64,000 bases of DNA from Phytohabitans rumicis (GTDB taxonomy: Bacteria > Actinomycetota > Actinomycetes > Mycobacteriales > Micromonosporaceae): assembly GCF_011764445.1 (NCBI RefSeq), contig NZ_BLPG01000001.1, positions 4,340,001 to 4,404,000 of the forward strand, in the 5' to 3' direction. This document shows, piece by piece, positions 5,499 through 23,925 of this stretch. Each line of letters starts with the position of its first letter. Within the stretch, counting starts at the first letter, position 1. The translations under genes were made by a program, and so were the position numbers. The notes under the pieces are model-generated. The model ran no database searches. It was not told where the DNA came from and worked only from the letters and a program-made list of their open reading frames with translations.

Positions 5499-5664
5499 AG
5501 GGCCTATCCGGTGGATCTTGTGGGAGCGAGGCGAGGTCCAGGCGGCGATCCGGCGGTGCCGGGCGGGAGGTCACATACCGGTGTTGTATGTAGCCTTTCG
5601 TCCGGTGCCGCCGGTCGTCGTCTGGGCCCGCCGCAGCCCCACAAAGATCCGCCGGATAGGCCCT
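5499..5664. mobile_element. MITE-like inverted-repeat element, copy 1 (166 bp)
   Basis: The terminal inverted repeats of about 27 bp are AGGGCCTATCCGG plus TGGATCTTGTGGG on the left, with the complementary sequence on the right ending GGATAGGCCCT. The interior (GCGAGGCGAGGTCCAGGCGG, CTGGGCCCGCCGCAGCCCCAC) matches the 110-bp element at 23816-23925. Copy 1 carries an extra block of roughly 40-55 bp (about 5568-5625, ending TCCGGTGCCGCC) absent from copy 2. No transposase is encoded and no target duplication is evident. It lies between the 45-residue gene and that gene's terminator. Confidence 0.75.
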
Positions 5665-5666
5665 AG

Positions 5667-5698
5667 CGACCCGTCCGGGTGCACCGGGCGGGTCGTTT
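5667..5698 (+). terminator. Rho-independent terminator
   Basis: CGACCCGTCCGG pairs with CCGGGCGGGTCG (12 bp with one G-U) across the loop GTGCA, followed by TTT. It starts three bases after the MITE end and probably terminated the E2/45-residue transcript before the element arrived. Confidence 0.65.
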
Positions 5699-5911
5699 GT
5701 GTTGGCTGGTCGCCGAGACCGGGATTCCTGATAGCAGCGCGGGCCCGGTACGGTTGGCAACGGTCGTCGCCCCTTGGGCAGCGCACCCGTCGTCATCAAT
5801 CGGTTACTGCTGGCGGCGGTCGCGAGTCGGGGCCGCCACGACCTGCACGGCCGGCTCCGCCGGGCCTCTACGCGGAGGCGGCACGGCCGACATGTGATGG
5901 AGGAGGCGCAC

Positions 5912-8551
5912 ATGACGTCCGAGGGCCCGCAGCACCCCGGCCAAGAGCCGGCTGACGCTGCGCCGGGCGCCGGCGGACCAGCGCTGTACGGCAGTAGTGG
6001 ACAGCCGGCGCACGACAGCGAATGGGGCGTACCCACCCCGTGGGGAGCCGCTCCCCCGCCGAACAGCGCCGAGGCACCCGCCCCCGGCGTTCCGGCCGGT
6101 GCACCGGCACCCGCGTTCCCCACCAACTGGGGACCGCAGCCGGACGCCTACCCGCCTCCGCCAGCGGCGTACCCCCCGCCGCCCCAGGGCAACTTCCCCC
6201 CGCCCCCTCAGCCGGGCTTCCCACAGCCGCCCCAGGCAGGCTTCCCGCCGCCCGGCGTGGCGTCGGTGTCCCCGCCCGGCGTGGCCTCCGTGCCTCCCGC
6301 GCAGCCCCGGCCGAGCCGATGGGCCTGCCCCCGAGGCGTGGGCGCCGGTAGGTGCCTGGCCGCCGCCGACCGCCCAGCCGGAGCCGTCGTACCCGCCGGA
6401 GCCGGCTCCCCAGCCGTCCCTGCGCCCGGCCAGCCGGCACGACCTGCCCCAGCGCGAGCCCGGCGGTGGCTACGAGCCCGACGGCGGCCTTCAGCCGGGC
6501 AACGGCTTCCAGCCGGGTGGCTTCGGGCCGGCTAGCGGCTTTGAGCCCGCCAGGGGCTTCGAGCCCAACGCCGGCGGTTACGAGCAGCTTGGTGGCGGCT
6601 TCGAGCCCGCCGAGGGCTTCCAGCCCGCTGCCGGCGGTTACGAGCAGCCCGCCAGTGGTTACGAGCAGCCTGGCGGTCGCTTCGAGCCCGCCGGGGCGTC
6701 CAGCCCACTGCCGGCTTCGAGCCCAGCGCCGGCGGTTACGGCGAACAGCCCGGCGGCGGTTTTGAGCCGGCTTCCGGCGGTTACGAGCAGCCTAGGGGCG
6801 GCTTCGAGCCGACCCGGTACGAGGCGGGTCACCGGCAGCCTGACCGCGAAGACTCGCCGCCGCGTGGCTTCCCCGGGCAGGAGGTGCGCGTCCCAGGTGC
6901 CAACCTCGGCACCCCGCCGCCCGGTGAGCCCGGTCTGTTCACCCCGCGCCCGGCCGATCCGTACCAGGCGCCGCCGGCGGCCAACCCGTACCCGCAGGCC
7001 GGTCAGGGGCAGATCTCTTCACTCCGCCGCCCGCGCCGGGTCAGTACGGGCAGGCGCCGGAGGCTCAGCCCGCCTACGAGGCTCCTCCCCCTTCTTACGG
7101 CCCCCCACACGAGGCTCCGCCCTCGTACGACGGTCCTGGGTCCTATGGGCCGCCGCACGACGCTCCGTACGGGGCCCCGCACTCCTCCGAGCCGCAGGGC
7201 ACGGATCCGCGCGATCAGCAGCCGTACGCATCCGCCCCGGCTGGCGGATCCGCTCCGGCCCCGGGGCCGTTCGGGTCCAACGGTCACGTGTTCGGGTCGG
7301 CGGGACCCTCCGCGCCCCGCCCCACGCGGCCGCCGCGGCGCCGCACTCGGACCAGGTCGAGCCCAAGCCGGTCTCGGCGAGCGCCTCCGTGCCGGTTGCC
7401 AGCCGCATCGCGCCCCCGGCCGACCAGGTCGCGGTCGTCCCACCGCAGGCGCAGGCGCCGCAGTCCCGCGTCTACGGCCGTCCGGCGGCGCCCGAGGTCG
7501 ACGACCCCGAGCCGTTCTCGCCGCCGCCACCGCCTCCGCCGCGCCAGGGTCCCGTGTCGGCCAGCGCCCGGGTGGCGCCACCGTCGCCGTCCAGCGCGCC
7601 ACCGTCGCCGTCCAGCGGCCCGGCCGCGCAGCCCACCTCGCCGCCCGCCCCGGGCGTCTACGGCGCGCCCCCCGGCACGTACGGCAGGCCGGTCAGCCCG
7701 CCCGGCGTGTATGGCGCCCCGCCCGAGACACCCGGCCCGTACGCGGCACCGCCGCAAGAGTTCCCGGGCCGTACGGGTCGCCCCAGGACGGTCCGCCGAA
7801 CGTTCCCGGGCCGTACGGGTCGCCGCAGGACGCGCCCGGGCCGTACTCGGAGCCCACCGGGGTGTTCCAGGGCGCGCCTCCCGGCAGCCCGGTGAGCCCG
7901 CCGCCGTACCCGCCACCGGGTCCCGCGGCGTACACGGCGGCTCCGCAGAGCCCGGCCGCCTACGCACCGCCGCAGGGTCCGCCCGGCTACCCGCCCCAGT
8001 CGCCGCAGTCGACGGCCATGTTCCCGACGCCGCAGGGACAGCCCGGCTACCCGCCCTACGACGGCCCGACCGGCTATCCGCCGCATGACGGGCCGCCCGG
8101 CTTCCCGCCGCAGGGGCCACCCCAGGGCGGTCCCGCACCGTGGGGGCCACCGCCCGGCGCCGACCAGGAGCAGAACAAGTTCAACGCGTTCCAGCCGGAG
8201 GCGGCACCCGCCAAGCCGGAGTCGGAGCCGGTGCCGCAGGTGCGCAACGGCCGCGTACTCATCATGGTGCTGGCCGCCGCGGCGCTGCTGCTGATCGTCC
8301 CGCTAGGCATCGTCTGGCTGCTCACCCGCGGGTCCGACCCGTCGTTCAACCCCGAGGTCGGCTCCTGCGTCAAGCAGTCCGGCACGACCGGCGCGGTCGC
8401 GGCGCAGTGCACCGAGGCCAACGCGTTCAAGGTCGTGTCCAAGGTGGACGAGGCCAAGCAGTGCACCGACCAGAGCCAGCCGCACGTCGTGATCGCCGGT
8501 GACGGCGGCAAGGACCAGGTGCTCTGCCTGGCCCCCGCCGCCAGTGGCTGA
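5912..8551 (+). CDS. Pro-rich single-pass membrane protein with LppU-like C-terminal domain, multiple frame breaks
   Basis: The ATG at 5912 follows GGAGGAGG by 5 bases. About 770 residues of low-complexity sequence come first: Pro-rich runs (YPPPPQGNFPPPPQPGFP), then repeats of GGYEQP/GGFEPA type, then PYGSPQDGP-like repeats. A membrane segment follows (RVLIMVLAAAALLLIVPLGI), then a 60-residue Cys-containing extracytoplasmic domain (FNPEVGSCVKQSG, AAQCTEANAFKVV, KQCTDQ, VLCLAPAASG) like the LppU/SCO3897 family. The repeat theme continues only if the frame is changed near 6310, 6695, 7010, 7320 and 7766, each in a G/C run. I therefore read one gene with sequencing errors rather than six fragments. 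It overlaps the next gene by 8 bases. Confidence 0.7.
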
Positions 8552-10385
8552 CCAGCGGGCCCGCGTTCGGGCGCCGGAGCTGCGCGGGCGCGGGTGGCTC
8601 AACACGGGCGGCCGCGACCTGCGGCTGGCCGACCTGCGCGGCAAGATCGTGCTGCTCGACTTCTGGACGTTCTGCTGCATCAACTGCCTGCACGTCCTGG
8701 ACGAGCTACGGCCGCTGGAAGACAAGTACGGCGACGCGTTGGTCGTGATCGGCGTGCACTCGCCGAAGTTCGAGCACGAACGGGACGCCGCCGCGCTCGC
8801 CGACGCCGTCGAACGGTACGGCGTGGCGCACCCCGTACTCGATGATCCTGAGCTGGAGACCTGGCGGCAGTATGCGGCGAAGGCGTGGCCGACGCTGTCG
8901 GTGATCGACCCGGAGGGGTACGTCGTCGCGTCGATGGCCGGCGAAGGCCACGCCGAAGGGCTGAGTCGGCTCCTGGACGAGCTGATCGCCACGCACGAGG
9001 CGAAGGGCACCCTGCACCGGGGCGACGGGCCGTACGTGCCACCCGCCGACGCCGCGACCACGCTGCGCTTCCCGGGTAAGGGGGTCCGGCTGGCGAGCGG
9101 CAGCCTGCTGGTGTCCGATTCCGCGCGGCACTCGCTGGTGGAGTTGGCGCCCGATGCCGAGACCGTCGTACGGCGGATCGGGTCGGGGACGCGGGGCCGG
9201 GCCGACGGCGCGCCCGAGGTGGCCGGCTTCTCCGAGCCGCAGGGCCTCTCCCTGCTGCCGCCACGCGAGGCCGAGATCGCCGGGTACGACCTGGTCGTCG
9301 CCGACACGGTCAACCACCTGCTGCGCGGCGTACGGCTGGACACCGGCGAGGTCACCACCGTCGCCGGCACCGGACGGCCGTGGCGGTCCACCGTGGACGA
9401 GCACGCGCACGACGCGCTGGCCGCCGACCTGTCCTCTCCCTGGGACCTCGCCTGGTACGACGGCCGCGTGATCGTCGCGATGGCCGGCATCCACCAGCTG
9501 TGGTGGTTCGACCCGGTCAAGCGGACCACCGGCGTGTACGCGGGCACCACCGTCGAGGCCCTGCGCGACGGTCCGCTGCCCGACGTGTGGATGGCCCAGC
9601 CGTCCGGCCTGTCCGTCTCGGCGGACGGTGCCCGGCTGTGGGTGGCGGACAGCGAGGCCTCGGCCCTCCGGTACGTCGAAAGCGACGCCCTGCACACCGC
9701 AGTGGGCCAGGGACTCTTCGACTTCGGCCACGTCGACGGGCCGGCGGACCGGGCGCTGCTGCAGCACCCGCTCGGGGTCTGCGCCCTGCCCGACGGCTCG
9801 GTGCTGGTGGCCGACACCTACAACGGCGCGGTACGCAGGTACGACCCGCACTCCGGGATGGTGTCCACCGTGGCCGGCGACCTGGCCGAGCCGAGCGACG
9901 TGGTGCTCACCGCGGACGGTGGCGTCGTGGTGGTGGAGTCGGCGGCGCATCGGCTCACCCGGCTCGCACCGGGCGCGCTGTCCGCCGCGGGCGCCGTGAC
10001 CGTGGCCGGCGAGCGGCACCGTACCGAGCGGCCGCCAACCGACCTGGCACCCGGCGAGGTGACCCTCGACGTCGTCTTCACCCCGGCACCCGGCCAGAAG
10101 CTCGACGAGTCATTCGGCCCGTCCACCCGGCTGGAGGTGTCCGCGTCCCCGCCCGAGCTGCTCCTGGACGGCGCCGGCGTGACCACCGACCTGTCCCGCC
10201 GGCTGGTGCTCAACGCGGAGGTGCCGGCCGGGGTGCTGCAGGTGGTCGCCCAGGCAGCGACCTGCGACGCCGAGGCCGAGCACGCCGCCTGCCACCTCAC
10301 CCGCCAGGACTGGGGCGTCCCCATCCACGTCACCCCAGCCGGCACCACCCGCCTCCCGCTCATCCTCCGCGGGCTAGACGCCTGA
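8544..10385 (+). CDS. NHL-repeat protein with N-terminal thioredoxin-like domain
   Basis: This 613-residue protein starts with a TlpA/AhpC-like thioredoxin fold (LADLRGKIVLLDFWTFCCIN, with C-C-I-N-C in the redox position; VIGVHSPKFEHE). An NHL beta-propeller follows, with repeated SLLVSDSARHSLVEL, VVADTVNHLLRGV and VLVADTYNGAVRRYD segments and a C-terminal beta-rich domain. No signal peptide is seen. The GTG at 8544 overlaps the previous stop. Family members are widespread in bacteria with poorly defined redox roles. The CCINC motif is the usual family form and not degenerate. Confidence 0.85.
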   Translation: MADQRARVRAPELRGRGWLNTGGRDLRLADLRGKIVLLDFWTFCCINCLHVLDELRPLEDKYGDALVVIGVHSPKFEHERDAAALADAVERYGVAHPVLDDPELETWRQYAAKAWPTLSVIDPEGYVVASMAGEGHAEGLSRLLDELIATHEAKGTLHRGDGPYVPPADAATTLRFPGKGVRLASGSLLVSDSARHSLVELAPDAETVVRRIGSGTRGRADGAPEVAGFSEPQGLSLLPPREAEIAGYDLVVADTVNHLLRGVRLDTGEVTTVAGTGRPWRSTVDEHAHDALAADLSSPWDLAWYDGRVIVAMAGIHQLWWFDPVKRTTGVYAGTTVEALRDGPLPDVWMAQPSGLSVSADGARLWVADSEASALRYVESDALHTAVGQGLFDFGHVDGPADRALLQHPLGVCALPDGSVLVADTYNGAVRRYDPHSGMVSTVAGDLAEPSDVVLTADGGVVVVESAAHRLTRLAPGALSAAGAVTVAGERHRTERPPTDLAPGEVTLDVVFTPAPGQKLDESFGPSTRLEVSASPPELLLDGAGVTTDLSRRLVLNAEVPAGVLQVVAQAATCDAEAEHAACHLTRQDWGVPIHVTPAGTTRLPLILRGLDA

Positions 10386-10460
10386 GGCGTCTAGACGCCT
10401 GAGGCGTTAGGAGGGGACCCCTCCTATGCAAAAGGCGTTAACAGGGTGCCCTTCCTTTCA
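10374..10460. repeat. 17-bp tandem duplication plus palindromic repeat family D copy 1
   Basis: CTAGACGCCTGAGGCGT occurs twice in tandem (10374-10390, 10391-10407). The first copy contains the NHL gene's stop. AGGAGGGGACCCCTCCT then begins a family D element, which continues ATGCAAAAGGCGTTA to GCCCTTCCT, like the copy at 31099. The element's right end enters the 3' end of pxpA. It probably terminates both convergent genes. Confidence 0.65.
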
Positions 10461-11173
10461 AGCGCCGCGCGCACCCCGCGAGCCAGCTCCACGGCGCCCG
10501 GGGTGTCGCCGTGTACGCAGATCGACTCCACGGGGAGCCGTACGACGGTGCCGTCCACCGCGACCACCGTGCCGTCCACCGCCATCCGCACGACCCGCTC
10601 GGCCACCTCGTCCGGCGACTTCACCAGGGCGCCGGGCGACGAGCGCGGCACCAGCAGCCCGCTCGCCTGGTAACCGCGGTCGGCGAAGCCCTCCCCGACG
10701 GTGCGCAGCCCGGCACCCGTGGCCAGTTGGGCCAGCACCGAACCGGGCAGGCAGAGCACCGGCAGCGTCCGGTCGTAGTCGACCACCGCGGCCACCACGG
10801 CCGCCGCCTGTGCCTCGTCGACCGCCGCCGTGTTGTAGAGGGCGCCGTGCGGCTTGACGTACCGCACCCGGGTGCCGGCGACGCGGCAGAAGGCGTCCAG
10901 CGCCCCGATCTGGTAGATCACGTCGTCGCGCAGGTCGTCGAAGGCGTACTCGATCCGCCGCCGCCCGAAGCCGGCCAGGTCGCGGTAGCCCACCTGCGCG
11001 CCCACCGCCACACCACGCGAAGCGGCGGACGCGCACACCCGTCGCATGGTCACCGGGTCGCCGGCGTGGAAGCCGCATGCGACGTTCGCCGAGGTCACCA
11101 CCGTGAGGAGGGCGTCGTCGTCGCCGAGCCGCCAGGCGCCGAATCCCTCGCCCAGATCAGCGTTCAGATCCAT
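10424..11173 (-). CDS. pxpA: 5-oxoprolinase subunit A (LamB/YcsF family)
   Basis: This 249-residue LamB/YcsF protein begins MDLNADLGEGFGAW and carries SANVACGFHAGDP, YRDLAGFGRR, VKPHGALYN and FADRGYQASGLLVPRS, all typical of PxpA. With PxpB and PxpC it hydrolyses 5-oxoproline to glutamate using ATP in the cytoplasm. It is the last gene of pxpB-pxpC-pxpA and its start overlaps the end of pxpC by 17 bases. The frame is intact. Confidence 0.93.
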   Translation of the reverse strand: MDLNADLGEGFGAWRLGDDDALLTVVTSANVACGFHAGDPVTMRRVCASAASRGVAVGAQVGYRDLAGFGRRRIEYAFDDLRDDVIYQIGALDAFCRVAGTRVRYVKPHGALYNTAAVDEAQAAAVVAAVVDYDRTLPVLCLPGSVLAQLATGAGLRTVGEGFADRGYQASGLLVPRSSPGALVKSPDEVAERVVRMAVDGTVVAVDGTVVRLPVESICVHGDTPGAVELARGVRAALERKGTLLTPFA

Positions 11174-12013
11174 GGAACCTCACCGTAGTCCCGGGCGCCG
11201 CCTGCGCGAGGGGCGAAACGTCGTCGACCACCCCGATGACGGGGTAGCCGCCGGTCGTCGGATGGTCGGCGAGGAAGATCAATGGTTGGCCGTTCGCCGG
11301 CACCTGCACCGCGCCGAGCACCACGCCCTCGCTCGGCAGCTCCGCGGCCTGCACACCCGAAGCGCGGGGCAGGGCCGCGCCGGTCAGTCGCGCGCCGACC
11401 CGGTTGCTCACCGGACTCATCGTGTACGCGGTGCCGAGCAGCGCCTCGACCGCCTCCCGCGTGAACCAGCCGTCCCGGGGCCCCAGCCTGATCCAGAGGT
11501 GCAGCGCGGCCGGGGCGGCTCCCATGGCACGAAGTCCACCGTGGACGGCGTACCGGCCGAGCCAAGCGGCAGCCGGTCGCCGTCCCGCAGTTGGGCCGGC
11601 CCCAGCCCGGAGAGGGTGTCCGTGGACCGGCTGCCCAGCACCGGCTCCACCGCGATGCCACCGGCAACGGCCAGGTACGACCGCACGCCGTACAGCGCCC
11701 GGCCGACCGAGATGACCGCACCAGCCGGCACCGCGACGGGTACGCCGTACGCCGCGGGCCGTCCGTCCACGGAGAACGGCGCACAGGCCCCGGTCAGCGC
11801 CACCGTGCCCGCCGAGGACAGCCGAAGCGAACACCCGCCGGCCGTCACCTCCAACCCCGCCGCGTCCGTGGCGTTGCCGACGAGGCGGTTGGCCAGCCGC
11901 AGCGCGGACGCGTCGAGGGCGCCCGACCGGGGCACGCCCAGGTGCGCCCAGCCGGGGCGGCCCAGGTCCTGGACGGTGGTCAGCGGGCCGGCCCGGAGCA
12001 CGTCGACGGTCAT
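11157..12013 (-). CDS. pxpC: 5-oxoprolinase subunit C (KipA/biotin-dependent carboxyltransferase family), one frame break
   Basis: The N-terminal half reads LRAGPLTTVQDLGRPGWAHL and TGACAPFSVDGRPA. The C-terminal half reads HLWIRLGPRDGWFT, YTMSPVSNRVGARLTG and LADHPTTGGYPVIGVV. The two halves lie in different frames, joined near 11520 where TGGGAGCCGCCCC appears one base short. The combined length of about 285 residues suits the family. The ATG overlaps the pxpB stop (ATGA). Together with PxpB it forms the KipIA-like complex acting with PxpA. The break is likely a sequencing error because both sides stay highly conserved. Confidence 0.88.
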
Positions 12014-12617
12014 GCGGGCACCAGCCGTACCCGGGTGCCGGGCGCGAGCAGGGCCGGCGGGTCCCGCCGTACGTCGAAGAGCACCGCGTCGGTCCGGCCG
12101 ACCAGCCGCCAGCCGCCGGGTGACGCGGTCGGATAGATGCCGGCGTACTCCCCGGCGAGCCCCACCGACCCGGCGGGCACCCTCGGGCGCGGGCTCGCCA
12201 GGCGCGGCACCGCCCAGGACGCCGGCAGCCCGGCCAGGTACGCGAACCCGGGCGCGAAGCCGCAGAACGCCACCCGCAACTCGGTCCCGGCGAGGCGCTC
12301 CACCGCCTCGGCGACGGGCACCCCCAGTGCGCGGCGACGTCGACCAGGTCGCTTCCGTCGTACCAGACCGGGATCGTCACGAGCTCGCCGGAGACGGTGC
12401 CGGCGGGCGGCGGCGGTGCCCAGCCGGCCAGGAGCCGGTCCGTGGTTTCCGGGTCGACGCCGTCGAGCAGGACGGTCCGGGCGCCGGGGATGATCTCGAC
12501 GGCCGCAAGTTCGCCCTGGTCGCGGCGGCGCCACAGCTCGGCCCGCCACGCTTCGACCTCGGCACCGCCGGCGCACTCGATGAGGAGGGCCGCGGCGCCT
12601 ACCCGGCGTGTCCGCAT
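12010..12617 (-). CDS. pxpB: 5-oxoprolinase subunit B (KipI family), one frame break
   Basis: The N-terminal part (VGAAALLIECAGGAEVEAWR, ARTVLLDGVDPETTDRLLAG) and the C-terminal part (LGVPVAEAVERL, VAFCGFAPGFAYLAGLP, SVGLAGEYAGIYPTASPGGW) together make a standard PxpB/KipI. They are in different frames, with one base apparently missing at GCACTGGGGGTGCC near 12330. The start used is the ATG at 12617; a GTG at 12638 is possible but neither has a strong ribosome site. It is the first gene of the operon. Confidence 0.87.
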
Positions 12618-12646
12618 GGCAGCTATGGTGCCCGACACCCGCTATC

Positions 12647-12677
12647 TACTTGCAAGTAACCTACGGTGCCGTAACCT
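12647..12677 (+). promoter_or_regulatory. Promoter of trhA with overlapping 12-bp palindrome, leaderless
   Basis: The -35 TTGCAA (12650-12655), a 16-bp spacer and the -10 TAACCT (12672-12677) place the start of transcription at or next to the GTG at 12685. The perfect palindrome TACTTGCAAGTA (12647-12658) covers the -35, suggesting repression by a small dimeric regulator. Confidence 0.5.
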
Positions 12678-12684
12678 AGATGAT

Positions 12685-13362
12685 GTGACGACTGAGGCCC
12701 CAACCCGTCTGAGACCCATCGACATCGGCAAGCCGCGGATGCGCGGCTGGCTTCACGCGTACGCCTTCTTCGTCGCCGCCGTGTGCGGCGTCGTTCTCTG
12801 CTCGCTGGCCGCGACCCGTCCCGGCGCCGGCCCGATCGTGAGCTGCGTGATCTACAGCCTCACCGTGTGCGGGCTCTTCGGTACCAGCGCGCTCTACCAC
12901 CGGCGCGTGTGGTCACCGCAGGGCTACGCGGTGATGAAGCGCCTCGACCACTCCATGATCTTCATCTTCATCGCCGGCACGTACACGCCGTTCTGCGTAC
13001 TCCTGCTGCCGACGCGGCTCGCGACCATACTGCTGGCGATCGTGTGGATCGGCGCCGTAGGCGGCGTGGCGCTGAAGCTGATCTGGCCGCACGCGCCCCG
13101 CTGGGCCTCGGCGCCGCTCTACATCGGGCTGGGCTGGGTGGCGGTCGCCGTGCTGCCGGACATCGGCCGGCACGGCGGCGCGGCCGCGCTCACGCTGCTG
13201 GTCGCCGGCGGTTTGGCGTACACGGTCGGTGCGATCTTCTACGCCCTGCGCCGGCCCAACCCGTGGCCGACCGTCTTCGGGCACCACGAGTTCTTCCACG
13301 CGTGCACGCTCGTCGCCGCGATATGCCACCACATCGCCATCTACTTCGCGATCTACTCGTAG
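12685..13362 (+). CDS. trhA: TrhA/hemolysin III family membrane protein
   Basis: This 225-residue seven-helix membrane protein belongs to the PAQR-related hemolysin III family. The signature residues are SALYHRRVW, LDHSMIFIFIAGTYTPFC and the C-terminal GHHEFFHACTLVAAICHH, which supply metal-binding Ser, Asp and His. Bacterial members affect membrane fluidity or ion handling; haemolysis is not established here. The GTG start sits directly after a promoter-like sequence, so the mRNA is probably leaderless. The gene ends 10 bases inside the convergent DUF6458 gene. Confidence 0.87.
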   Translation: MTTEAPTRLRPIDIGKPRMRGWLHAYAFFVAAVCGVVLCSLAATRPGAGPIVSCVIYSLTVCGLFGTSALYHRRVWSPQGYAVMKRLDHSMIFIFIAGTYTPFCVLLLPTRLATILLAIVWIGAVGGVALKLIWPHAPRWASAPLYIGLGWVAVAVLPDIGRHGGAAALTLLVAGGLAYTVGAIFYALRRPNPWPTVFGHHEFFHACTLVAAICHHIAIYFAIYS

Positions 13363-13613
13363 AGGCGGCCGGCCTCCCGGCGCTCCTCGACGACCCGCTC
13401 ACGCTGGGTCTGGACCGGGACCACGCGCTCGGGCGTGACGATCGTGCGGCGGCGGCTCTGCCAGAACCACAGCGTGAGCAGCAGCCCGGCCAGACCAGCG
13501 ATCATCAGCACCCAGCCGACGACGTTGATGTCCAGCCAACCCAGGTCGAAGTCCACGGCGAACGTGAAGATCGCACCCAAGGCGATCAGGAAAATGCTTC
13601 CACCGATACCCAT
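13353..13613 (-). CDS. DUF6458 small membrane protein
   Basis: This 86-residue protein has the family's MGIGGSIFLIALGAIFTFAV start, a WLDINVVGWVLMIAGLAGLL second segment and WFWQSRRR before a charged tail. Two membrane helices with a cytoplasmic Arg-rich tail are predicted. The function is unknown. A second copy of the same family lies at 14368-14646 on the other side of sixA. The 3' ends of this gene and trhA overlap by 10 bases. Confidence 0.85.
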   Translation of the reverse strand: MGIGGSIFLIALGAIFTFAVDFDLGWLDINVVGWVLMIAGLAGLLLTLWFWQSRRRTIVTPERVVPVQTQRERVVEERREAGRLYE

Positions 13614-13664
13614 AACACGTGCTTACCCACGTGTTTCGTTCCCCAATCAGGCAAGCTGTAACGC

Positions 13665-14162: not shown

Positions 14163-14227
14163 CCCGCTCCTCGCCCCGCTCCTCGCCCCGCCGCGGCCGA
14201 CGCCGCGCCGATCGCGGCCGCCGCCGT

Positions 14228-14324: not shown

Positions 14325-14367
14325 GCGCAGAGGCGGGCCGCGTGGACGCGGGGCGGAGCGGGAGTGA

Positions 14368-14646: not shown

Positions 14647-14658
14647 CTGTCCATTACA

Positions 14659-14701: not shown

Positions 14702-14709
14702 GCCTCTGT

Positions 14710-16566: not shown

Positions 16567-16594
16567 GCTCGCTGGCCCCCGCTTCGGCAGGTTG

Positions 16595-16645
16595 TGTTAC
16601 CGATCAGTAACATCAATTGTATTACCCGCCAGTAAGCAGCGACAA
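16595..16645 (-). promoter_or_regulatory. fadE promoter with two TetR-type operators
   Basis: On the minus strand, TTGTCG (16640-16645), an 18-bp spacer and TACAAT (16616-16621) form a good sigma-70-like promoter. Palindrome TTACTGGCGGGTAA (16622-16635) fills the spacer. Palindrome TGTTAC-N6-GTAACA (16595-16612) lies just downstream of the start point. The centres are 25 bp apart. This arrangement fits repression by a TetR-family acyl-CoA sensor, which is inference. Confidence 0.65.
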
Positions 16646-16680
16646 GAAAAGGGTGTGAGTGACCGTCGCCACACCCCGGC

Positions 16681-17952
16681 TCAGGGAAGCACGATGACGA
16701 GCGGGTACTCGCAGTTGACCTTGCTGGCGCCGAGCGCGTCGCCGTAGCACCAGTCACTCTGCGTACCGCCGTCTAGGTCGTCGTACCCGTCGCCGCCGTG
16801 CAGGGTGTCCGAGCCCTGGTCGCCGTGGAGCGCGTCCTCGTGGGCGCCGCCGTTGAGCGCGTCGTTGCCGTATCCGCCGTACACGACGTCGTGGCCCCAC
16901 GAGCCGTACACGGTGTCGTCGCCGCCCATGCCCCAGATGCCGTCGCCGCCGCCGAAGCTGTAGATCACGTCGTCGCCGCCCACCTGTGGCAGCCAGTTAC
17001 CGGACGGGTCGCCGCGCAGCGCGTTCGCCCCCGTGTTTCCGTACAGGGTGTCGGCGCCCAGGCCGCCAGTCAGATTCTCGACATCGACGGCGATCATGTC
17101 GTTTTCGCCGGCCGCGCCGTCGTTCGCGACGCCGTCGAGGCTGGCCGTGACGGCCGCCTTGTGGTTGCGGTAGCTGGCGGTGTCGCTGCCCGTGCCGCCG
17201 GTCAACTGGTCCGTGCCCCAGTCGCCGACGAGCGTGTCGTTGCCGCCCGCGCCGTTGACGGTGTCGGCGCCGGCGTTGCCCTCCAGCGTGTCGGCGCCGG
17301 TGCCGCCGGTCAGCGTGTCGCCGTACGGGCTGCCGACGACCCGCTCGAACTCCTCCAGGTCGTCGTGCTCGGCGCCGGTGCCGCCGTCGCCGGTGGCCAG
17401 GTTCACCGTGACCGCAGTCGCGTGCAGGGCGTAGCTGATCGTGTCGGTGCCGGTGCCGCCCTCGATGTGCTCGCCGTACGGGCTGGAGAAGACGGTGTCC
17501 GCACCCATGCCGGCCACCACGTACGACCCGCCGACGTCGATCCCGGTCAGGTCCGCGGTGTCGGCGCCGTCGCCGAGGCCGATCCGCCAGTTCACCGAGC
17601 CGCCGCCGACGATCGTGGCGGTGTCGCCCTGGTCGCCCGGCTCGATCGTCACGTCCGGCGAGGCCACCCCGACGTTGCACTGCACGTACGTGTCGTCGGC
17701 CGGCACCGGGTACGTGCACATCCCGATGATCGTGATGGGGTACACGTCGTCGACCGTCACCGTGGTGCCGGTCTTGACCACCGTGACGTCGTTGGCGAAC
17801 CCGGGCGCGCCGTCGAAGTCCAGGTTGCCGTCGATGCCCACCTCGACCGTGCCGCCGGCTGGCCCCGCGTACGCCGGGCTCGCGGCCACTCCCGTGACGA
17901 AAACCGTGGATGCCGCCGCGACCAGGACGGCGACGCTCAGCCTCTTGACCAT
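16681..17952 (-). CDS. Secreted RTX-type calcium-binding repeat protein
   Basis: The 423-residue protein has a Sec signal peptide ending near SPAYA-GPAGG and a beta-rich N-terminal half. From about residue 150 it carries glycine/aspartate nonapeptide repeats of GGTGADTLEGNAGADT and GGAHEDALHGDQGSDT type, which form calcium-filled beta-rolls. It ends with a short tail containing two cysteines (DWCYGD, KVNCEY). No protease, lipase or adhesin domain is visible, so its activity is unknown. It lacks type I secretion genes nearby and is more likely exported by Sec. Confidence 0.85.
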   Translation of the reverse strand: MVKRLSVAVLVAAASTVFVTGVAASPAYAGPAGGTVEVGIDGNLDFDGAPGFANDVTVVKTGTTVTVDDVYPITIIGMCTYPVPADDTYVQCNVGVASPDVTIEPGDQGDTATIVGGGSVNWRIGLGDGADTADLTGIDVGGSYVVAGMGADTVFSSPYGEHIEGGTGTDTISYALHATAVTVNLATGDGGTGAEHDDLEEFERVVGSPYGDTLTGGTGADTLEGNAGADTVNGAGGNDTLVGDWGTDQLTGGTGSDTASYRNHKAAVTASLDGVANDGAAGENDMIAVDVENLTGGLGADTLYGNTGANALRGDPSGNWLPQVGGDDVIYSFGGGDGIWGMGGDDTVYGSWGHDVVYGGYGNDALNGGAHEDALHGDQGSDTLHGGDGYDDLDGGTQSDWCYGDALGASKVNCEYPLVIVLP

Positions 17953-17994
17953 GGCGCAGGGATACCAACTCCGGGCCCCCGGAGCACGGCACGG

Positions 17995-19121
17995 TCAGCT
18001 ATCCGACGCGCCCAGCTCCCAACTTGGCACCGCGGCGGTCGGGACCGGGCGCGCACCGGCGTACTCGAAGAGCACCAGCGCGATGTCGTCGTCGAGGCGA
18101 CCGTGCACCCACTCGACCAGCGCGGTCTCCAGGGACGCCAGGCCGTCGCCGACCGTGCCGTGGCCGAGCAGCCGCCAGGCCCGGTCGGCGGTCGGGAAGA
18201 ACTCGCCCTCCCGGCGGGCCTCGCCCAGCCCGTCGGTGAAGAGCAGCAGCCGATCGCCGGGCTCCAGCCGCTCCACCCGCGGCCGGACGACCGGCATGAA
18301 GCCCAGCGGCGGCGCCGGGGCCGGCGGCTCCAGCGGGATCACCTCGCCCCGCCGCAGCAGCAGCGGCGCGGGGTGCCCGCAGTTGACGATCGTGAGCGTG
18401 CCGCCGCGCTCCTCGACCAGCGCCGCGGTCACGAAGTCCTCGTCGCCGACGCTGCGGGCCACCGCCCGGTCCAGGTCGGCCACGATCGCCCGCAGGTCGG
18501 CCCGCTCATACGCGACGTGCCGGTACGAGCCGAGCACGATGCTGGCCAGCCGGACCGCGTCCAGGCCCTTGCCGCGCACGTCACCGATGATCATGCGAAC
18601 GCCGTACGGCGTGTCGAGCGCCTCGTACAGGTCGCCGCCGATGTCGGCCGCGGCCGTCGCCGAGATGTACCGCCCGGCCACCGCGAGCGTCCCCACCTGC
18701 GGGCCTAGCGGCCGCAGCACCGCCTGCTGCGCCACCGACGCCAGCCGGGACAGCTCCGCGATGCGCTCGGCCTGCCGTTCCCGGATGGTGGCCACCGCGG
18801 CGGCGATCCCGGTGGCCAGCCCGATGCCCACCACGATCGTGGCGTTGGCCAGCCTGTTGTCCTGCCCGGCCAGCGCGAACGCGCCGCCCACCACGGTCGC
18901 CAGCACCCCACGGCCAGCACCACCCGCCACGACGCGAACGCCGCCGCCAGGAACGGCGCCGCCACGATCAGGCCGATATACCGGGCCTCCGACCCGTCCG
19001 CCAGCTCGATCGCCGACACGAGCGCGAGCAGCACAAGGGCCGCGCCGAGGCCGGCGCGGGAACCAGGGCTCAGCGGGCGGCGGCCCGGCGGCAACAATCG
19101 CATGGGTACGCCGAACAGCAT
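17995..19121 (-). CDS. SpoIIE-type PP2C phosphatase with N-terminal membrane region, one frame break
   Basis: The C-terminal catalytic domain has AADIGGDLYEAL, MIIGDVRGKGLDAV, LLLFTDGLGEARR and LDDDIALVLFE, the metal-binding set of SpoIIE/RsbU phosphatases that act on anti-anti-sigma proteins. The N-terminal part has several hydrophobic helices (GLGAALVLLALVSAIELADG, IGLIVAAPFLAAAF) in another frame. One missing G in the GGGG run near 18909 joins RVVLAVG to GVLATVVGGAF. The start is uncertain: ATG at 19121 or 19103, or GTG at 19181, none with a clear ribosome site. Confidence 0.8.
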
Positions 19122-19209
19122 GCCTGATCGACGGCCACGACTGAACGAAGTTGACCCGTCGTCCGATCCGGATTTGGCCACCTGGTGCGGGTGGTTGCTA
19201 TGCCTAAGG

Positions 19210-19779
19210 TCATTTCAGGATTTCATACGTCACGTCGACGTGGCCCAGGTCGAGCGAGGCGATCGCCCGGAAGGCGGCCCGGGACAGGTCGATGCAGCGC
19301 CCGTCGACGTACGGGCCACGGTCGTTGATCCGCACGACCACGGACTTGCCGTTATCGGGGTTGGTGACCCGTACCCGGGTGTCGAACGCCCAGGTCTTGT
19401 GGGCGGCGGTGAGCGCCTCCGGGTCGAATTCCTCGCCGTTGGCGGTCGGCTGTGGCTCGTCGTAGTACGACGCCCCGCACGACCCGGTGGCGGTGACCGT
19501 CTCCGGCGCCTTGGTGGCCTTGGCGCTGGTCTTCGCCGAGCTGGGCTCCGCGCTGCGGGCGTTGCCCCGGGAGGCCCGCAGCGGCGTCGCGGCAGGCGTT
19601 GGTGTTTGCGCCGCCACCGTAGGCGTCGCGCTGGCCGCCGCGGCCACCGGTTCGGTGCTTGGCTGGCGGGCATCGTGCAGCCGCAGCGCGCCGTACGCCC
19701 CGCCCACGAGCAGGACCCCGACGACCGCCGCCGAGACCAGTGAACTGCCCCGGGACCTGCGTGAATGCTTTCCGGTCAC
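19210..19779 (-). CDS. RlpA-like double-psi beta-barrel protein, secreted
   Basis: The 189-residue protein has an N-terminal basic segment and membrane helix (SSLVSAAVVGVLLVGGAYGA), an Ala/Thr/Pro linker, and a C-terminal RlpA-like double-psi beta-barrel. The barrel shows GSCGASYYDEPQPTANGEEF, RVRVTNPDNGKSVVVRINDR, GPYVDGRCIDLSRAAF and the catalytic-type Asp. Such proteins cleave or bind glycan strands at septa. Its place next to other envelope genes suits a peptidoglycan role. Confidence 0.85.
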   Translation of the reverse strand: MTGKHSRRSRGSSLVSAAVVGVLLVGGAYGALRLHDARQPSTEPVAAAASATPTVAAQTPTPAATPLRASRGNARSAEPSSAKTSAKATKAPETVTATGSCGASYYDEPQPTANGEEFDPEALTAAHKTWAFDTRVRVTNPDNGKSVVVRINDRGPYVDGRCIDLSRAAFRAIASLDLGHVDVTYEILK

Positions 19780-19912
19780 CGGCGGACCGTAGGCAGCTCC
19801 CCGCCTCCAGTGTCAAAGTGATCTATGGCTTTAGTACGGCTTTGTGGTGAAACGTTCAGCCAATCGAACGACCTGGTGTGGTCCGGTTGTCCCCGCTCCG
19901 GACAATGGGTAC

Positions 19913-20469
19913 GTGCCGGATGCCCTCACGAAACGCCTGGTCGACGCGTTCCGCTGGATCGACCCCGGACCGGAGAGCACCCACCTCGTCAGCGACATGT
20001 CCGGCTGGTGGCGCGACCCGGAGATCCTCGACGGCCTCGGCCCGGCCCTCGCCGACCTCTTCCGCACCGACCGCCCCACCGTGGTGATCGCGCCCGAAGT
20101 CACCGGCTACCTGGTCGGCCCCCTGGTCGCCACGGCCCTGGGCGCCGGCTTCGTGCCGGGCCTCAAGGAGGGCGCCGACCGCCAGATCGCCGAGCCCGTG
20201 ACCTGGGCCCGCACCGAGCCGGACTATCGCGGCCGCACGCTGGCGCTGGGCGTACGCAGCCGCCACATCACGCCCGCCGACCGCGTCCTGGTGGTGGACG
20301 ACTGGGTCTCCACCGGCGCCCAGGTAGGCGCCCTCTACCAGGTAATACGCGCCCTCGGCGCGACGGTGGTGGGCTGCGCCGCGGTGGTCGCCGACTGCCC
20401 CCGGAGATCCAGACCCGCCTGGCCATCCGCTCCCTCCTGACCTCCGACACCCTCGACCCGCACCCTTGA
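19913..20469 (+). CDS. Phosphoribosyltransferase-family protein, frame break near 20400
   Basis: A type I PRT fold is indicated by the PRPP-binding loop VLVVDDWVSTGAQ, preceded by VVIAPEVTGYLVGPLVATAL and followed by GATVVGCAAVVADC. It resembles adenine phosphoribosyltransferase-like proteins, but the base specificity cannot be read. The starting frame ends in noise after ADCP. One added C at GACTGCCCCCGG near 20400 gives PPEIQTRLAIRSLLTSDTLD and a stop at 20467-20469. The start is the GTG at 19913; TTGTCC and GGACAA form an inverted repeat just upstream. Confidence 0.75.
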
Positions 20470-20470
20470 G

Positions 20471-20770
20471 TCATGCCGCAGGGGTCTTGGGGGTGAACCC
20501 GACCGCCAGTTCAACGTCGAGAGCGCGGGCGAGACGCTCCAGAACGTGAAGCGTCGGGACCGTCCCGCCAGCCTCGAAGCGCGCGACTGCCGACTGCGTC
20601 ATCCCGGCCCCTTGCGCGAGCCGGCTCTGGCTCCAACCCCGCTGCTCACGCAACTCGCGCACGGCACGACCGAGCTCGAAGGCGAGCCGGGCGGCCTCGT
20701 ACTCCGCGACGGCGCCGGGCTCGGCCATCCGGCGGTCCCGGACATCGGTCCAACTGCTGCGCTCGCTCAT
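20471..20770 (-). CDS. XRE-family antitoxin-like HTH protein
   Basis: The 99-residue protein has a helix-turn-helix (RGWSQSRLAQGAGMTQSAVARFE) and a C-terminal AVGFTPK segment like HigA/Xre antitoxins. Its ATG overlaps the stop of the upstream gene (ATGA), the normal toxin-antitoxin arrangement with toxin first. The upstream toxin is badly shortened, so the antitoxin looks orphaned. It probably still binds the 18-bp palindrome at 20932-20949. Confidence 0.82.
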   Translation of the reverse strand: MSERSSWTDVRDRRMAEPGAVAEYEAARLAFELGRAVRELREQRGWSQSRLAQGAGMTQSAVARFEAGGTVPTLHVLERLARALDVELAVGFTPKTPAA

Positions 20771-20934
20771 CCCTCAACCCTCGTCTTCCTCAACGGTGTG
20801 TAGGGCTTGCCCAGCAGCGGCCCTTCCGCGGCCAACAGATCGATGTAGAACGCCGCCCGCGCGAAGTGCGCGGTAGGTAAGCTCTCCAACCACTCCCTGA
20901 TCTCCGGTTCCAGCTCCACCGTACCCCAGGTCAT
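20767..20934 (-). pseudogene. RelE/HigB-type toxin remnant with internal deletion
   Basis: It encodes 55 residues. MTWGTVELEPEIREWLESLP and TAHFARAAFYIDLLAAEGPL match the N-terminus of HigB-like toxins of about 110 residues. After LLGKPYTP the sequence jumps directly to LRKTRVEG-stop, which resembles the family's C-terminal FxKTR motif. The central sheet and catalytic residues are missing, as expected for an in-frame internal deletion of about 50-60 codons. The start codon is embedded in the operator palindrome. Confidence 0.65.
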
Positions 20935-20949
20935 AGCATCGATGCTATG
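20932..20949 (-). promoter_or_regulatory. Perfect 18-bp palindrome overlapping the toxin start
   Basis: CATAGCATCGATGCTATG is fully palindromic. On the minus strand its TAGCAT can serve as a -10 with the toxin ATG 7 bases downstream, so transcription would be leaderless and directly blocked by the antitoxin. The same site is symmetric toward the divergent GNAT gene. Confidence 0.6.
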
Positions 20950-20983
20950 AGCAGCGGGCTGAACGCGCTGCCCCGACGACGAC

Positions 20984-21535
20984 GTGAGGAGCACTGCGTT
21001 GCCAGGAATCGATGTTTCGATCGTGTCCTCGCCCGCGGCCGACGATGACCTGTTCGTGACGGAGGTCGTGGACCTGGTCAACCGGGTGTACGCCGAGGCC
21101 GAGAAGGGGCTGTGGCTGGACGGCGCCGACCGGACCAACGCACCCGAGGTAGTGGCGATCGTCCGTACCGGGCAGCTCGCCGTGGCCCGGCTGGACGGTG
21201 AGCTCGCCGGCGCCGTACGCGTCCAGCGGCTCGACGGCGGGATCGGCGAGTTCGGGATGCTGGTCGCCAGCCCGGAGCTGCGTGGCGTGGGCGTCGGCCG
21301 GGCGCTGGTCGACTTCGCCGAGCGGTGGGCACGGGAGCAGGGGCTCGCCCGGATGCAGCTCGAACTGCTCGTACCGCAGACGTGGACGCATCCGGTCAAG
21401 GAGTTCCTCCACGGCTGGTACACCCGCATCGGCTATCAACCCGTGCGTACCGGGCGGCTGGACGAGGCGTACCCGGCGCTGCAACCCCAACTCGCGACCC
21501 CGTGCGACTTCGTGATCTACCACAAGGACCTGTAG
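20984..21535 (+). CDS. GNAT-family N-acetyltransferase
   Basis: This 183-residue protein has the GNAT acetyl-CoA pyrophosphate loop ELRGVGVGRALVDFAE (motif A, R/Q-x-x-G-x-G) and the preceding strand IGEFGMLVASPE. C-terminal LHGWYTRIGYQPVRTGRL is also typical. The substrate is not predictable. The GTG at 20984 is used as start. The reading frame is intact and the gene is separate from the toxin-antitoxin pair behind it. Confidence 0.85.
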   Translation: MRSTALPGIDVSIVSSPAADDDLFVTEVVDLVNRVYAEAEKGLWLDGADRTNAPEVVAIVRTGQLAVARLDGELAGAVRVQRLDGGIGEFGMLVASPELRGVGVGRALVDFAERWAREQGLARMQLELLVPQTWTHPVKEFLHGWYTRIGYQPVRTGRLDEAYPALQPQLATPCDFVIYHKDL

Positions 21536-21559
21536 CACCGGGCGCCTAGACTCTTTGCT

Positions 21560-21850
21560 GTGCCGAGTGTGCTGAGCCTGTGCGCGTACGTCATCGGGCT
21601 TTTCGCTGGCGGCACCAGCTCGACCGAGCTGATCGCCGGTGCCGCGCTCGCCGCCGTGAGCCTCCTCGCCATCGCGGTCTCCTTCCACGTCGCCGCGGGC
21701 CGCCTGCCCGGCACGGGCCGCCCGGCACGACTGCACAGCGCCGCCGTACGCGAGCACACCCGCGGCGCCCGGCTCCCGCGACTGCGCGACCCCGACGCGG
21801 CTGGCCGCGCCCGGCCCCGAGCACCGTCCGCGCGCCCCTCGGCCGCGTAG
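21560..21850 (+). CDS. DUF6412 small membrane protein
   Basis: The 96-residue product has one or two hydrophobic helices (VLSLCAYVIGLFAGG, LIAGAALAAVSLLAIAVSFH) followed by an Arg/Pro-rich cytoplasmic tail. It sits 79 bases before the YidC paralogue, the place where DUF6412 proteins are found in actinobacteria. It starts with GTG at 21560. It probably assists or shares regulation with YidC, but no function has been shown. Confidence 0.75.
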   Translation: MPSVLSLCAYVIGLFAGGTSSTELIAGAALAAVSLLAIAVSFHVAAGRLPGTGRPARLHSAAVREHTRGARLPRLRDPDAAGRARPRAPSARPSAA

Positions 21851-21928
21851 CGCTTCCTCACCCATCTGCCTGCCGCCGCGCGGCCGGTTTGCGATGCCGT
21901 CATCCGCAACCAGCCGAGGGGTTTCCTC

Positions 21929-22648
21929 ATGCTCGCGTTCGCACCGATCAATGGCGCCGCCGGCGCCGCGTACCACGTCGTCACCGGCCTGGCCGACCTC
22001 ATCGCCCCGCTGGCCGGGACCACTGCCACCGCCGCCGCCATCGTCCTCTTCACGATGCTCGTCCGCCTGCTGATCTCGCCGCTGAGCTGGGCACAGATCC
22101 GCGGCCAGCAGCGCCAGGCCACTCTCGCACCGAAGCTGCGCGAGCTGCAGGAACGCCACCGGAACGACCCGGCCCGGCTACGTACCGAGCTGGCGACGGT
22201 CTACCGGGAAGCGGGCACCACGCCGCTGTCCGGATGCCTCCCGGCGTTGCTGCAGGCACCGTTCTTCTTCGTCATGTACCGCCTGTTCACCACGTCGACA
22301 ATCAACGGGGAGGGCAACAGCCTGCTGGCCGAGCGCCTGCTGGGCGTACCCCTGGGGCAGCATTTCGCCGACGGCCTCGGCGGCGGCGCGGGCCTTGTCT
22401 TCCTCGCGCTGTTCGCCGCGCTCGCGGCCCTGGCCTGGCTCACGTCGCGCCGGATGCGGCGGGCCGCGGTGCCCGCAGACGGTCCCGCGGCCGCTATCAG
22501 CCGGGTACTGCCGTTGCTGCCGTTCACGGTGTTGATCGCCGCGGCGGTGATGCCGCTCGCGGCCGGGCTCTACCTGGTGACGACGACCGCGTGGACCGCC
22601 TTGGAGCAAGGCGTCCTCCGCCGGTTTGTTGTCGTACCCGCTGGCTAG
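21929..22648 (+). CDS. yidC: YidC/Oxa1-family membrane insertase, second-copy type
   Basis: This 239-residue polytopic protein carries the YidC/Oxa1 core: TAAAIVLFTMLVRLLISPLS, QRQATLAPKLRELQERH, LATVYREAGTTPLSGCLPAL, QAPFFFVMYRLF, and later helices ending near TTTAWTALEQ. It inserts membrane proteins together with or without Sec. The shortness and lack of an rpmH-rnpA context mark it as an extra copy rather than the housekeeping insertase. GAGGGG precedes the ATG by 7 bases. Confidence 0.85.
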   Translation: MLAFAPINGAAGAAYHVVTGLADLIAPLAGTTATAAAIVLFTMLVRLLISPLSWAQIRGQQRQATLAPKLRELQERHRNDPARLRTELATVYREAGTTPLSGCLPALLQAPFFFVMYRLFTTSTINGEGNSLLAERLLGVPLGQHFADGLGGGAGLVFLALFAALAALAWLTSRRMRRAAVPADGPAAAISRVLPLLPFTVLIAAAVMPLAAGLYLVTTTAWTALEQGVLRRFVVVPAG

Positions 22649-22657
22649 CGTGGGCGC

Positions 22658-23173
22658 ATGACCGTGACGCTCGACAATCTCGCAGCCGTGGGCAACGTGG
22701 TCGACGGGGGATACCAGCACGTCACCAAGGTGATCATCCCGCGCCCCGCGCTCGCTCTGCCCGACACCTACCTGAAGTGGTACGACCTGCACCGCGCGGA
22801 CCAGACGGTCCGCGCGGAGGTCGACGCCGAGGCGCGCGAGTTCGTCCGCGCCGAGACCGCCGCCGGCCGGCTACCCATCTCGGGTGACCTCGGCTTCGTC
22901 ATCGACCACCTGTCCGGCGAGCACATCCACCTGCTGCTCGTGTTCACTTGGCGGGGCAACAACGAGATGTGGGAGTCCGTCTACTACAAGGACCTCCGCG
23001 ACGGCGGGCCGTTCCAACTCGCCCCACAGGGCACGCACCGCGGCGCGATCTGCGTCTGGGAGTTCGGCGCCGTCGCGCACGAGCACCTGGCCTGGACGCG
23101 CTACCTGCGGTCCGCACGCGACGAGGCCGCCAAGCGGGAGTACGCCGAAAGCCTCTACGCCGGCGAGATCTAG
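22658..23173 (+). CDS. Conserved protein of unknown function, 171 residues
   Basis: A cytoplasmic, acidic protein starting 9 bases after yidC, so possibly cotranscribed. Distinctive stretches are VTKVIIPRPALALPDTYLKW, GDLGFVIDHLSGEHIHLLLV and NNEMWESVYYKDLRDGGPF. I recognise no domain or catalytic motif. The composition suggests a globular enzyme-like or binding protein. Its stop overlaps the convergent HAD gene's stop by 3 bases. Confidence 0.75.
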   Translation: MTVTLDNLAAVGNVVDGGYQHVTKVIIPRPALALPDTYLKWYDLHRADQTVRAEVDAEAREFVRAETAAGRLPISGDLGFVIDHLSGEHIHLLLVFTWRGNNEMWESVYYKDLRDGGPFQLAPQGTHRGAICVWEFGAVAHEHLAWTRYLRSARDEAAKREYAESLYAGEI

Positions 23174-23865
23174 TAGGTCGCGAGCTCGGCCATGCTGTCG
23201 ATCAGTGCGTCCGCCCTGGCGAGGCGGGCGCGCTTGCCCGGCTTGTTGGCGTACCCGATGGCCGGGACCCGAGCGGCGTGCGCCGCGTCGATGTCGGTCG
23301 TGGAGTCGCCGACCAGCACGCACTCCTCGGGTTGGGCACCCAGCTCGCGGAGTGCCGCCAGCACCGGCCACGGATTCGGCTTCATCCGAGCCGGCTCGGC
23401 GTACGGCCGTCCGATGACCGCGTGCACGGAGCCGGCCAGCCCGTGCGCCGTGAGATAGGCACGGACCGCCTCGGCGGAGTTGTTGGACACGATCGCGACC
23501 CGGTGGGCCGCCCCGATGACCTCCCCGGCGTACGGCGTCGGCTCCGCACCGCCGACCGCGACCAACTCGGCGGCGCGCAGGGCGTCCTCGATCCGGCGGG
23601 TCACACCGGGCCGGCCAGCCGTCGCCGAGTAGCGGAGGATCTCCAGCGGATCAGACTCGGCGATTATCGCTTCGGGCAGGCTGACGCCCTCGTCGGCGAG
23701 CAGTTGCCGCAGCTCGGCCGCGACGGTGGATGCGGGATGGTTGGCGAAGACGCGGCAGACCGGCCCGTCGAAGTCGAGCAGCAGGTAACGCTTGTGCCTG
23801 AACCAAGGGCATGTCTGGTGGATCTTGTGGGTGCGAGGCAAGGTCCAGGCGGCGTCCGGCGGCAC
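23170..23865 (-). CDS. HAD-family hydrolase with 5' end altered by a MITE
   Basis: HAD motif I is RYLLLDFDGPVC, motif II is VAIVSNNSAEAV, the conserved Lys sits near RMKPNPWPVL, and motif IV is CVLVGDSTTDIDAA, as in Gph-like phosphatases. The gene body begins directly after the MITE end at 23816, at FRHKRYLLL. No start codon remains in the native part. The nearest in-frame starts are GTG codons inside the element, at 23865 and 23913. If used, they add about 18 residues or more of MITE-encoded sequence. The gene may be expressed from the element or be silent. Confidence 0.75.
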   Translation of the reverse strand: MPPDAAWTLPRTHKIHQTCPWFRHKRYLLLDFDGPVCRVFANHPASTVAAELRQLLADEGVSLPEAIIAESDPLEILRYSATAGRPGVTRRIEDALRAAELVAVGGAEPTPYAGEVIGAAHRVAIVSNNSAEAVRAYLTAHGLAGSVHAVIGRPYAEPARMKPNPWPVLAALRELGAQPEECVLVGDSTTDIDAAHAARVPAIGYANKPGKRARLARADALIDSMAELATY

Positions 23866-23925
23866 CGGGCGGAGGTCGTCGTCTGGGCCCGCCGCAGCCC
23901 CACAAAGATCCACCAGACACGCCCT
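23816..23925. mobile_element. MITE-like inverted-repeat element, copy 2 (110 bp)
   Basis: The terminal inverted repeats are AGGGCATGTCTGG plus TGGATCTTGTGGG at the left and the complement of AGGGCGTGTCTGG plus TGGATCTTTGTGGG at the right. The interior matches copy 1 (GTCCAGGCGGCG, CTGGGCCCGCCGCAGCCCC) but lacks its extra block. Its right end completes the TAG stop of the DUF6924 gene, and its left end abuts the HAD coding sequence. No coding capacity or target duplication is seen. Confidence 0.75.

Follow-up and report, generated by a model that had tools for sequence, protein, structure and literature searches.

Bacterial MITEs are usually regarded as deleted transposons. In the available excerpts of their reports, the Correia repeat enclosed elements (CREE) of Neisseria and the bcr repeats of the Bacillus cereus group provide a precedent for MITE-like elements that act as RNA hairpins or sit in UTRs. 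CREE are 153-157 or 104-108 bp long, with inverted repeats, a conserved core and a target duplication; the hairpin they form in mRNA is bound and cut by RNase III, and the symmetry of their ends varies among copies (PMC2649163, excerpt). Some of the repeats bcr1-bcr18 are MITE-like, often lying in UTRs, and bcr10 and bcr18 have a conserved RNA structure (PMC3446304, excerpt). Template switching has been reported to homogenise arms and invert spacers (PMC8604942, excerpt), and to create and repair paired arms and invert loops (PMC8794818; PMC8604942, excerpts).

We examined a window of 64,000 nucleotides from the actinobacterium Phytohabitans rumicis (contig NZ_BLPG01000001.1, positions 4,340,001 to 4,404,000), which carries two copies of an inverted-repeat element. 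Compared by description and not by sequence, this element is like CREE in size, inverted repeats and conserved core, target duplication, hairpin and variable end symmetry. It differs from them in its host, and CREE come in two end variants; neither a strand-specific G-U excess nor an exchange of ends is part of the CREE description in the available excerpt (PMC2649163). The bcr1-bcr18 repeats, again compared by description and not by sequence, belong to another host, and end exchange and arm mirroring go unmentioned in the excerpt of their report. With the IS5-group insertion sequences (DUF4096 plus DDE) the element shares its ends and TA flanks, although these carry a transposase and their interior is, by eye, unlike the hairpin core. 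At the window locus, Rfam gave no family above the gathering threshold (the best sub-threshold match was MIR1144, with 26.2 bits against 90), and a literature search covering open-licence papers found no description of the hairpin family. The original prediction had recognised no described family, and this holds for Rfam and the open-licence literature searched.

The two elements had been placed at 5499-5664 and 23816-23925. Both are real elements, with changed limits: copy 1 is one base narrower on each side, and the true start of copy 2 lies nine bases further out (Table 1). The inner core they were said to share was recovered in both copies with the family core model, and copy 2, in which a block of about 40-55 bp had been noted as absent, is 46 bp shorter and without the hairpin tip. 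The outer bases had been described as complementary within each copy. This was true of copy 1, whose outer 12 bases are GGGCCTATCCGG on both arms (a full mirror, the outer 12 bp of the right and left terminal inverted repeats being identical), and failed at one position in copy 2, which has GGGCATGTCTGG on the left and GGGCGTGTCTGG on the right, with a mismatch at position 5 (A left, G right) that is already visible in the sequences given with the original prediction. The flanks are CA/TA for copy 1 and AA/TA for copy 2. As RNA, copy 1 folds at -145.2 kcal/mol on the + strand versus -112.1 on the - strand.

Table 1. Features located in the window (position 1 is its first nucleotide)
Feature	Position	Strand	Remarks
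Copy 1, full-length element	5500-5663 (164 bp)	+	+ is the better-folding strand
Copy 1 left terminal inverted repeat, GGGCCTATCCGGTGGATCTT	5500-5519	+	Left flank CA, not TA
Copy 1 right terminal inverted repeat, reverse complement GGGCCTATCCGGCGGATCTT	5644-5663	+	Right flank TA
Copy 1 hairpin core, covariance model R1	5524-5639	+	107.4 bits, E 7.8e-23
Copy 1 apical stem-loop, ATACCGGTGTTGTAT	5575-5589	+	Near-invariant across the family
Copy 2, internally deleted element	23807-23924 (118 bp)	+	
Copy 2 shortened hairpin core	23831-23900	+	40.9 bits, E 3.2e-07
tRNA gene	25587-25657	-	
c-di-AMP riboswitch (ydaO/yuaA leader)	28016-28148	-	95 bits

A BLAST search with copy 1 against the source genome (10.7 Mb in 3 contigs) gave 46 matches, which correspond to 35 separate places, fragments included. 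With the whole genome and its relatives searched, as had been proposed, the repeat pair proved to belong to a family far larger than two copies. Among the 208 distinct elements that passed a size filter of 155-172 bp, 193 were 162-165 bp long; some of the 208 had been oriented by their own fold, and totals for this set do not enter the evidence on strand bias. Loci L360-L362 were excluded, as were hits lacking an unambiguous pair of ends and elements that failed the size filters. The core model, which spans the inner 115 positions, was found in 67 of the 150 sampled genomes of the Micromonosporaceae (source genome included) and in 21 of 44 genera, the weak hits being partly inspected. Among 37 further loci (L323-L359), one at a contig edge (L334) was without ends; the others mostly had the same length, flanks, loop and better-folding strand together with new end types, the exceptions being L337 (no TA flanks) and L340 (no loop).

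The element is a non-autonomous, MITE-like, inverted-repeat element, as the original prediction had it. It is short (about 163 bp), multicopy and mostly TA-flanked, with terminal inverted repeats and a target duplication, and it has no coding gene, as judged from its size. Both flanks were TA in 128 of 221 element records, and 83 read CTA...TAG, in a set where records overlap partly and the choice of ends gave a bonus to TA, favouring TA flanks. At least three kinds of ends sit on one core in the source genome, namely A (GGGCGTGTCTGGTGGATCTT), B (GGGCCTGTGTCGAAGTGG or GGGCCTGTATCAAAGTGG) and C (GGGCCTGTTTTATGAGGG and variants). A 20-base end searched against this genome with up to 3 mismatches gave 48 matches, which include IS ends and a few chance hits, and the reversed pattern gave 1.

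A matching transposase end had been suggested among IS5-like elements, and a near-matching one was found. The source genome holds an IS5-group element with ends GGGCGTGTCTCCTGGATC, which agree with window end type A at 18 of 20 bases; its open frame contains DUF4096 (E 3e-26) and scores above the cut-off of the NCBI IS5 model. The B end GGGCCTGTATCAAAGTGG of one source-genome element (L085) is identical to a P. suffuscus IS end over 18 bases. DUF4096 was present in 10 of 11 genomes. An end-pair search of 50 fetched DUF4096 loci (part of all hits) gave convincing TA-flanked IS end pairs, 0.89-1.03 kb apart, in the source genome, P. suffuscus, M. musae and Virgisporangium, and found none at most of the 50 loci. 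Within the source genome, our search detected no IS with ends identical to type A, and DDE_Tnp_4 transposases gave no match at E 0.001.

An internally deleted IS was rejected as the origin of the core, given an IS interior that by eye is unlike it. An autonomous version adjoining the hairpin was also rejected: two 15-base end tests, covering the source-genome loci and the loci with the exact core pattern, yielded no transposon. What they gave were near matches with 2 mismatches (L003, L208, L224 and L262), a neighbouring hairpin copy plus one further 2-mismatch end (L268), an isolated end (L215) and, at L115, a repeat on the border of the element itself. At the one locus compared among relatives, none showed an empty site with both flanks; five relatives carry one element-free flank there, a single flank per relative being matched at full length. 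Loci L443-L454 and L457-L462 have ends AGAGGTCC..., often without TA on both sides, and may have been moved by another transposase group.

The hairpin core showed compensatory changes beyond the controls. In an alignment of 28 representatives (L195, L210 and L230 left out), 96.0% of cells were paired versus 79.6% after shuffling, and covariation was 0.487 versus 0.177 in the shuffled alignments and 0.119 in the best slid version. Changes on both sides were seen in 36 of the 67 core pairs, and none of 500 shuffles reached any of the five hairpin measures. DNA template switching could also cause such compensatory changes. The loop was recognisable in 97 of 99 fetched copies.

Pairing was also strand-specific. 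This was assessed on 109 distinct elements of 150-172 bp, drawn from the source genome and from loci with the exact core pattern. All 109 gave the better RNA fold on the strand defined from sequence (mean -135 versus -104 kcal/mol), and the folds used 888 G-U pairs on + versus 167 on -. When the arms were aligned in a strand-neutral manner, we counted 863 G-U and 269 A-C, with G-U exceeding A-C in 104 elements, falling below it in 2 and equalling it in 3. The same count on the 28 representatives gave 186 G-U and 76 A-C (more G-U in 26, fewer in 1). Of the 97 fetched copies whose loop could be recognised (many of them already among the 109), 96 had it on the better-folding strand. A count of 695 G-U versus 27 A-C is inflated by the consensus structure behind it, a prediction made on the + strand; predicting on - gave 116 versus 203, and the pairs common to both predictions gave 99 versus 19. 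The one-strand bias is about threefold, consistent and real.

In the alignment of the 109 elements, about 160 A-C cells fall in three column pairs (29/143, 39/133 and 40/132) that are not mutually paired in the + structure. Many elements have A-C or G-C at these columns, next to internal loops. A-C is common there (59, 62 and 39 of the 109 elements, respectively), in contrast to other parts of the stem, and might signal an internal loop that is recognised.

Recent changes were also counted. With the outer 12 bp excluded, single-copy changes at Watson-Crick pairs led to G-U 21 times and to A-C 11 times (p 0.11), and shared changes 10 and 3 times; in looser clusters, the inner stem had 41 changes to G-U and 21 to A-C. 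In the inner stem, A-to-G changes (G-U kept) compared with T-to-C changes as 10 to 2. Since recent changes are weakly biased to G-U, strand-biased mutation could contribute to the excess. After the strand-neutral recount, old and recent changes contrast less, and this makes both the RNA reading and that of a mobility hairpin less probable. In our judgement, the simplest cause of the G-U bias would be selection on RNA.

We also compared ends and cores separately, in 13 elements hand-picked to show the pattern (no random sample). Phytohabitans A and B elements had identities of 0.60 in the ends and 0.93 in the core, and A-like and B-like elements of genus g7 had 0.54 and 0.90. Across genera, Phytohabitans A and g7 A-like elements had 0.95 in the ends and 0.78 in the core, and P. 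suffuscus and M. costi had 0.88 and 0.70. As far as these identities indicate, cores follow the host and ends do not. Because cores are like those of the same genus (0.90-0.93) and ends like those of another genus (up to 0.95), the transposon-like ends look interchangeable, and they appear to have been exchanged more than once with the hairpin core staying recognisable. In contrast to the usual view of MITEs, the core lasts here and it is the transposon ends that look replaceable.

The claim that left and right arms change together was borne out in the source genome. Among 22 two-armed type A copies, 18 positions of the outer 12 bp were altered in the two arms alike and 6 were discordant; when right arms were shuffled among copies (10,000 times), discordant positions averaged 36.5, with a minimum of 21. 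The arms were identical in 17 of the 22 copies, 10 of these with non-consensus sequence. Some mirrored changes are common to pairs of copies (L001/L029, L010/L052 and L008/L015), so that independent events are fewer than 18. Counted as occurrences and not as events, 12 changes in the 13 outermost pairs of 15 of these 22 copies were mirrored and 10 were one-armed, a recurring T/C difference at pair 13 accounting for 7 of the one-armed ones; in their inner stem, 1 was mirrored and 45 were one-armed. A mirrored one-base deletion was present in both arms of L133.

Mirroring is clear in the source genome and weak elsewhere. Eleven loose clusters (157 elements) had 25 mirrored and 54 one-armed events in the outer 12 bp, versus 17 and 106 in the inner stem. 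In ten tight clusters from several genera (119 elements), there were 7 mirrored and 41 one-armed events in the outer 12 bp, and the rest of the element, with 15 and 66, did not differ from this (Fisher p 0.63). Mirroring as a family-wide rule was not supported, as the outer changes of the tight clusters are mostly one-armed. Non-covarying outer arms, which the original prediction had named as evidence against itself, do occur: 5 of the 22 source-genome copies are discordant, and recent changes elsewhere are mostly one-armed. Arm covariation is thus a strong tendency and not a rule.

Two causes had been put forward, a hairpin constraint and copying between arms, and they seem to act on different parts of the element. 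The hairpin constraint is favoured for the core by covariation and the one-strand G-U excess, and arm copying for the outer 12 bp in the source genome, with no clear sign of it in the ten clusters elsewhere. The apical loop is inverted in L175 and L258, versus 100 forward loops. Both the mirrored arms and the rare inverted loops are in keeping with template switching between arms, which best explains the mirrored outer 12 bp. The likeness to quasipalindrome or template-switch mutation lies in arm homogenisation and spacer inversion (excerpts of PMC8604942 and PMC8794818); the difference is that this is a process and not an element, and the process alone does not explain the strand bias. The right end of L128 (G000:C1:8733900-8734300) has a tandem duplication of CTCGACCGACCCTCATA, which slippage or template switching may have left behind.

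To describe the insertion sites, genes were called with a simple home-made GC3 method, which placed 100 of the 120 elements (of the others, 16 lay near locus edges and 4 were called inside genes). We observed that 53 sat between convergent, 39 between tandem and 8 between divergent genes, with 114 of 583 background gene pairs being convergent. In 60 of the 100, the element completed the neighbour's stop codon, TA and the element's first G giving TAG. The stop was completed in this way at 71 of 145 facing 3' ends and at 0 of 55 facing 5' ends; as background, 189 of 2193 TAs outside gene bodies fall in stops at the exact-core-pattern loci. This siting may come partly from TA targets, the scarcity of TAs in GC-rich DNA and the loss of harmful insertions. 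Many genes end directly in the hairpin, which has a bearing on 3'-end annotation in these bacteria. There was no orientation bias relative to genes (18 co-directional versus 21), and stops showed no preference for the left or right junction (40 versus 31, p 0.34). The lack of an orientation preference counts against a purely host-side role, since the better-folding strand should be the preferred one if the hairpin served the host as a 3'-UTR. Host 3'-UTR selection was rejected on this ground as the source of the strand bias.

We propose a MITE-like family with a transcribed hairpin core, moved by the IS5 group, sited at stop codons and with template-switched ends, and we give this explanation as a whole an even chance of being right. 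IS5-group transposases would move the element in trans, and the core would be transcribed, usually by read-through from a neighbouring gene. A very stable hairpin starting at a stop codon would make a 3'-UTR or RNase-III-type structure, and a hairpin at this 3' position could keep the insertion harmless or useful; we tentatively favour a 3'-UTR hairpin that would render stop-codon insertions harmless. Template switching during replication would copy one arm from the other and keep the ends alike, would occasionally invert the loop, and could spread a new end gained on one side to the other. The G-U pairs might let the RNA pair while the DNA avoids a perfect, unstable palindrome.

Much of this could also be accommodated by an ordinary MITE whose palindrome is kept solely by template switching between arms and in which strand-biased mutation, such as C-to-T on a frequently single strand, produces the G-U excess, with no function for the RNA. 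TA flanks, inverted ends and copy number fit such an element, as does the reported capacity of template switching to create and repair arms and invert loops (PMC8794818; PMC8604942, excerpts). The recent changes, at about 2 to 1 toward G-U (21:11 and 41:21), are also near the family-wide 3 to 1. However, C deamination does not predict the excess of A-to-G over T-to-C in the inner stem, and the near-invariant loop and the IS interior that, by eye, is unlike the core also speak against it, so that we consider it somewhat unlikely. By analogy with attC and REP/IS200-type systems, the top strand might instead fold as single-stranded DNA during mobility and be read by a nuclease or recombinase. The arms and loop would act like a folded substrate, and G-T is better tolerated than A-C in DNA too; as the ends and TA flanks are of the DDE-element type, we hold this to be very unlikely.

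The ends may also never have been swapped, if ancient end types persist and gene conversion among the copies of a genome keeps their cores alike. Conversion would give the high core identity seen within a genus across end types, but its tracts would need to stop repeatedly near the end repeats, and this account appears rather improbable to us. We give a small chance to the idea that the hairpin takes part in the spread of the element instead of being its cargo, as an old actinobacterial RNA on borrowed IS ends, needed for mobility (as RNA or as one strand) and renewing its ends by arm copying. If the RNA of the preferred explanation, a transcribed core moved on IS5-group ends, is real, it becomes testable whether structured RNAs can go mobile on ends borrowed from DNA transposons, and by what route the two ends of one element change together.

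Covariation of the hairpin core and the one-strand bias extend across a large bacterial family, and possibly beyond it. The exact core pattern occurred in 112 stretches, 105 of them from genera that we take to belong to the Micromonosporaceae; the 7 stretches outside these genera held no convincing element. Within the class, 24 of 296 genomes had a match to the core model, the source genome among them. Nine class-level loci outside the family were checked, and strand-neutral counts favoured G-U in L466-L470 (4-13 versus 0-3 A-C), with no G-U preference in L463-L465 (2-4 versus 4-6) or L471 (4 versus 4). Some of these candidates beyond the Micromonosporaceae are likely to belong to the element family. 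One strongly diverged element, L132 (G000:C1:2947600-2948300), has ends GTGCCTGTCCAGGG and ATGCCTGTCCAGGG and a core that is still recognisable.
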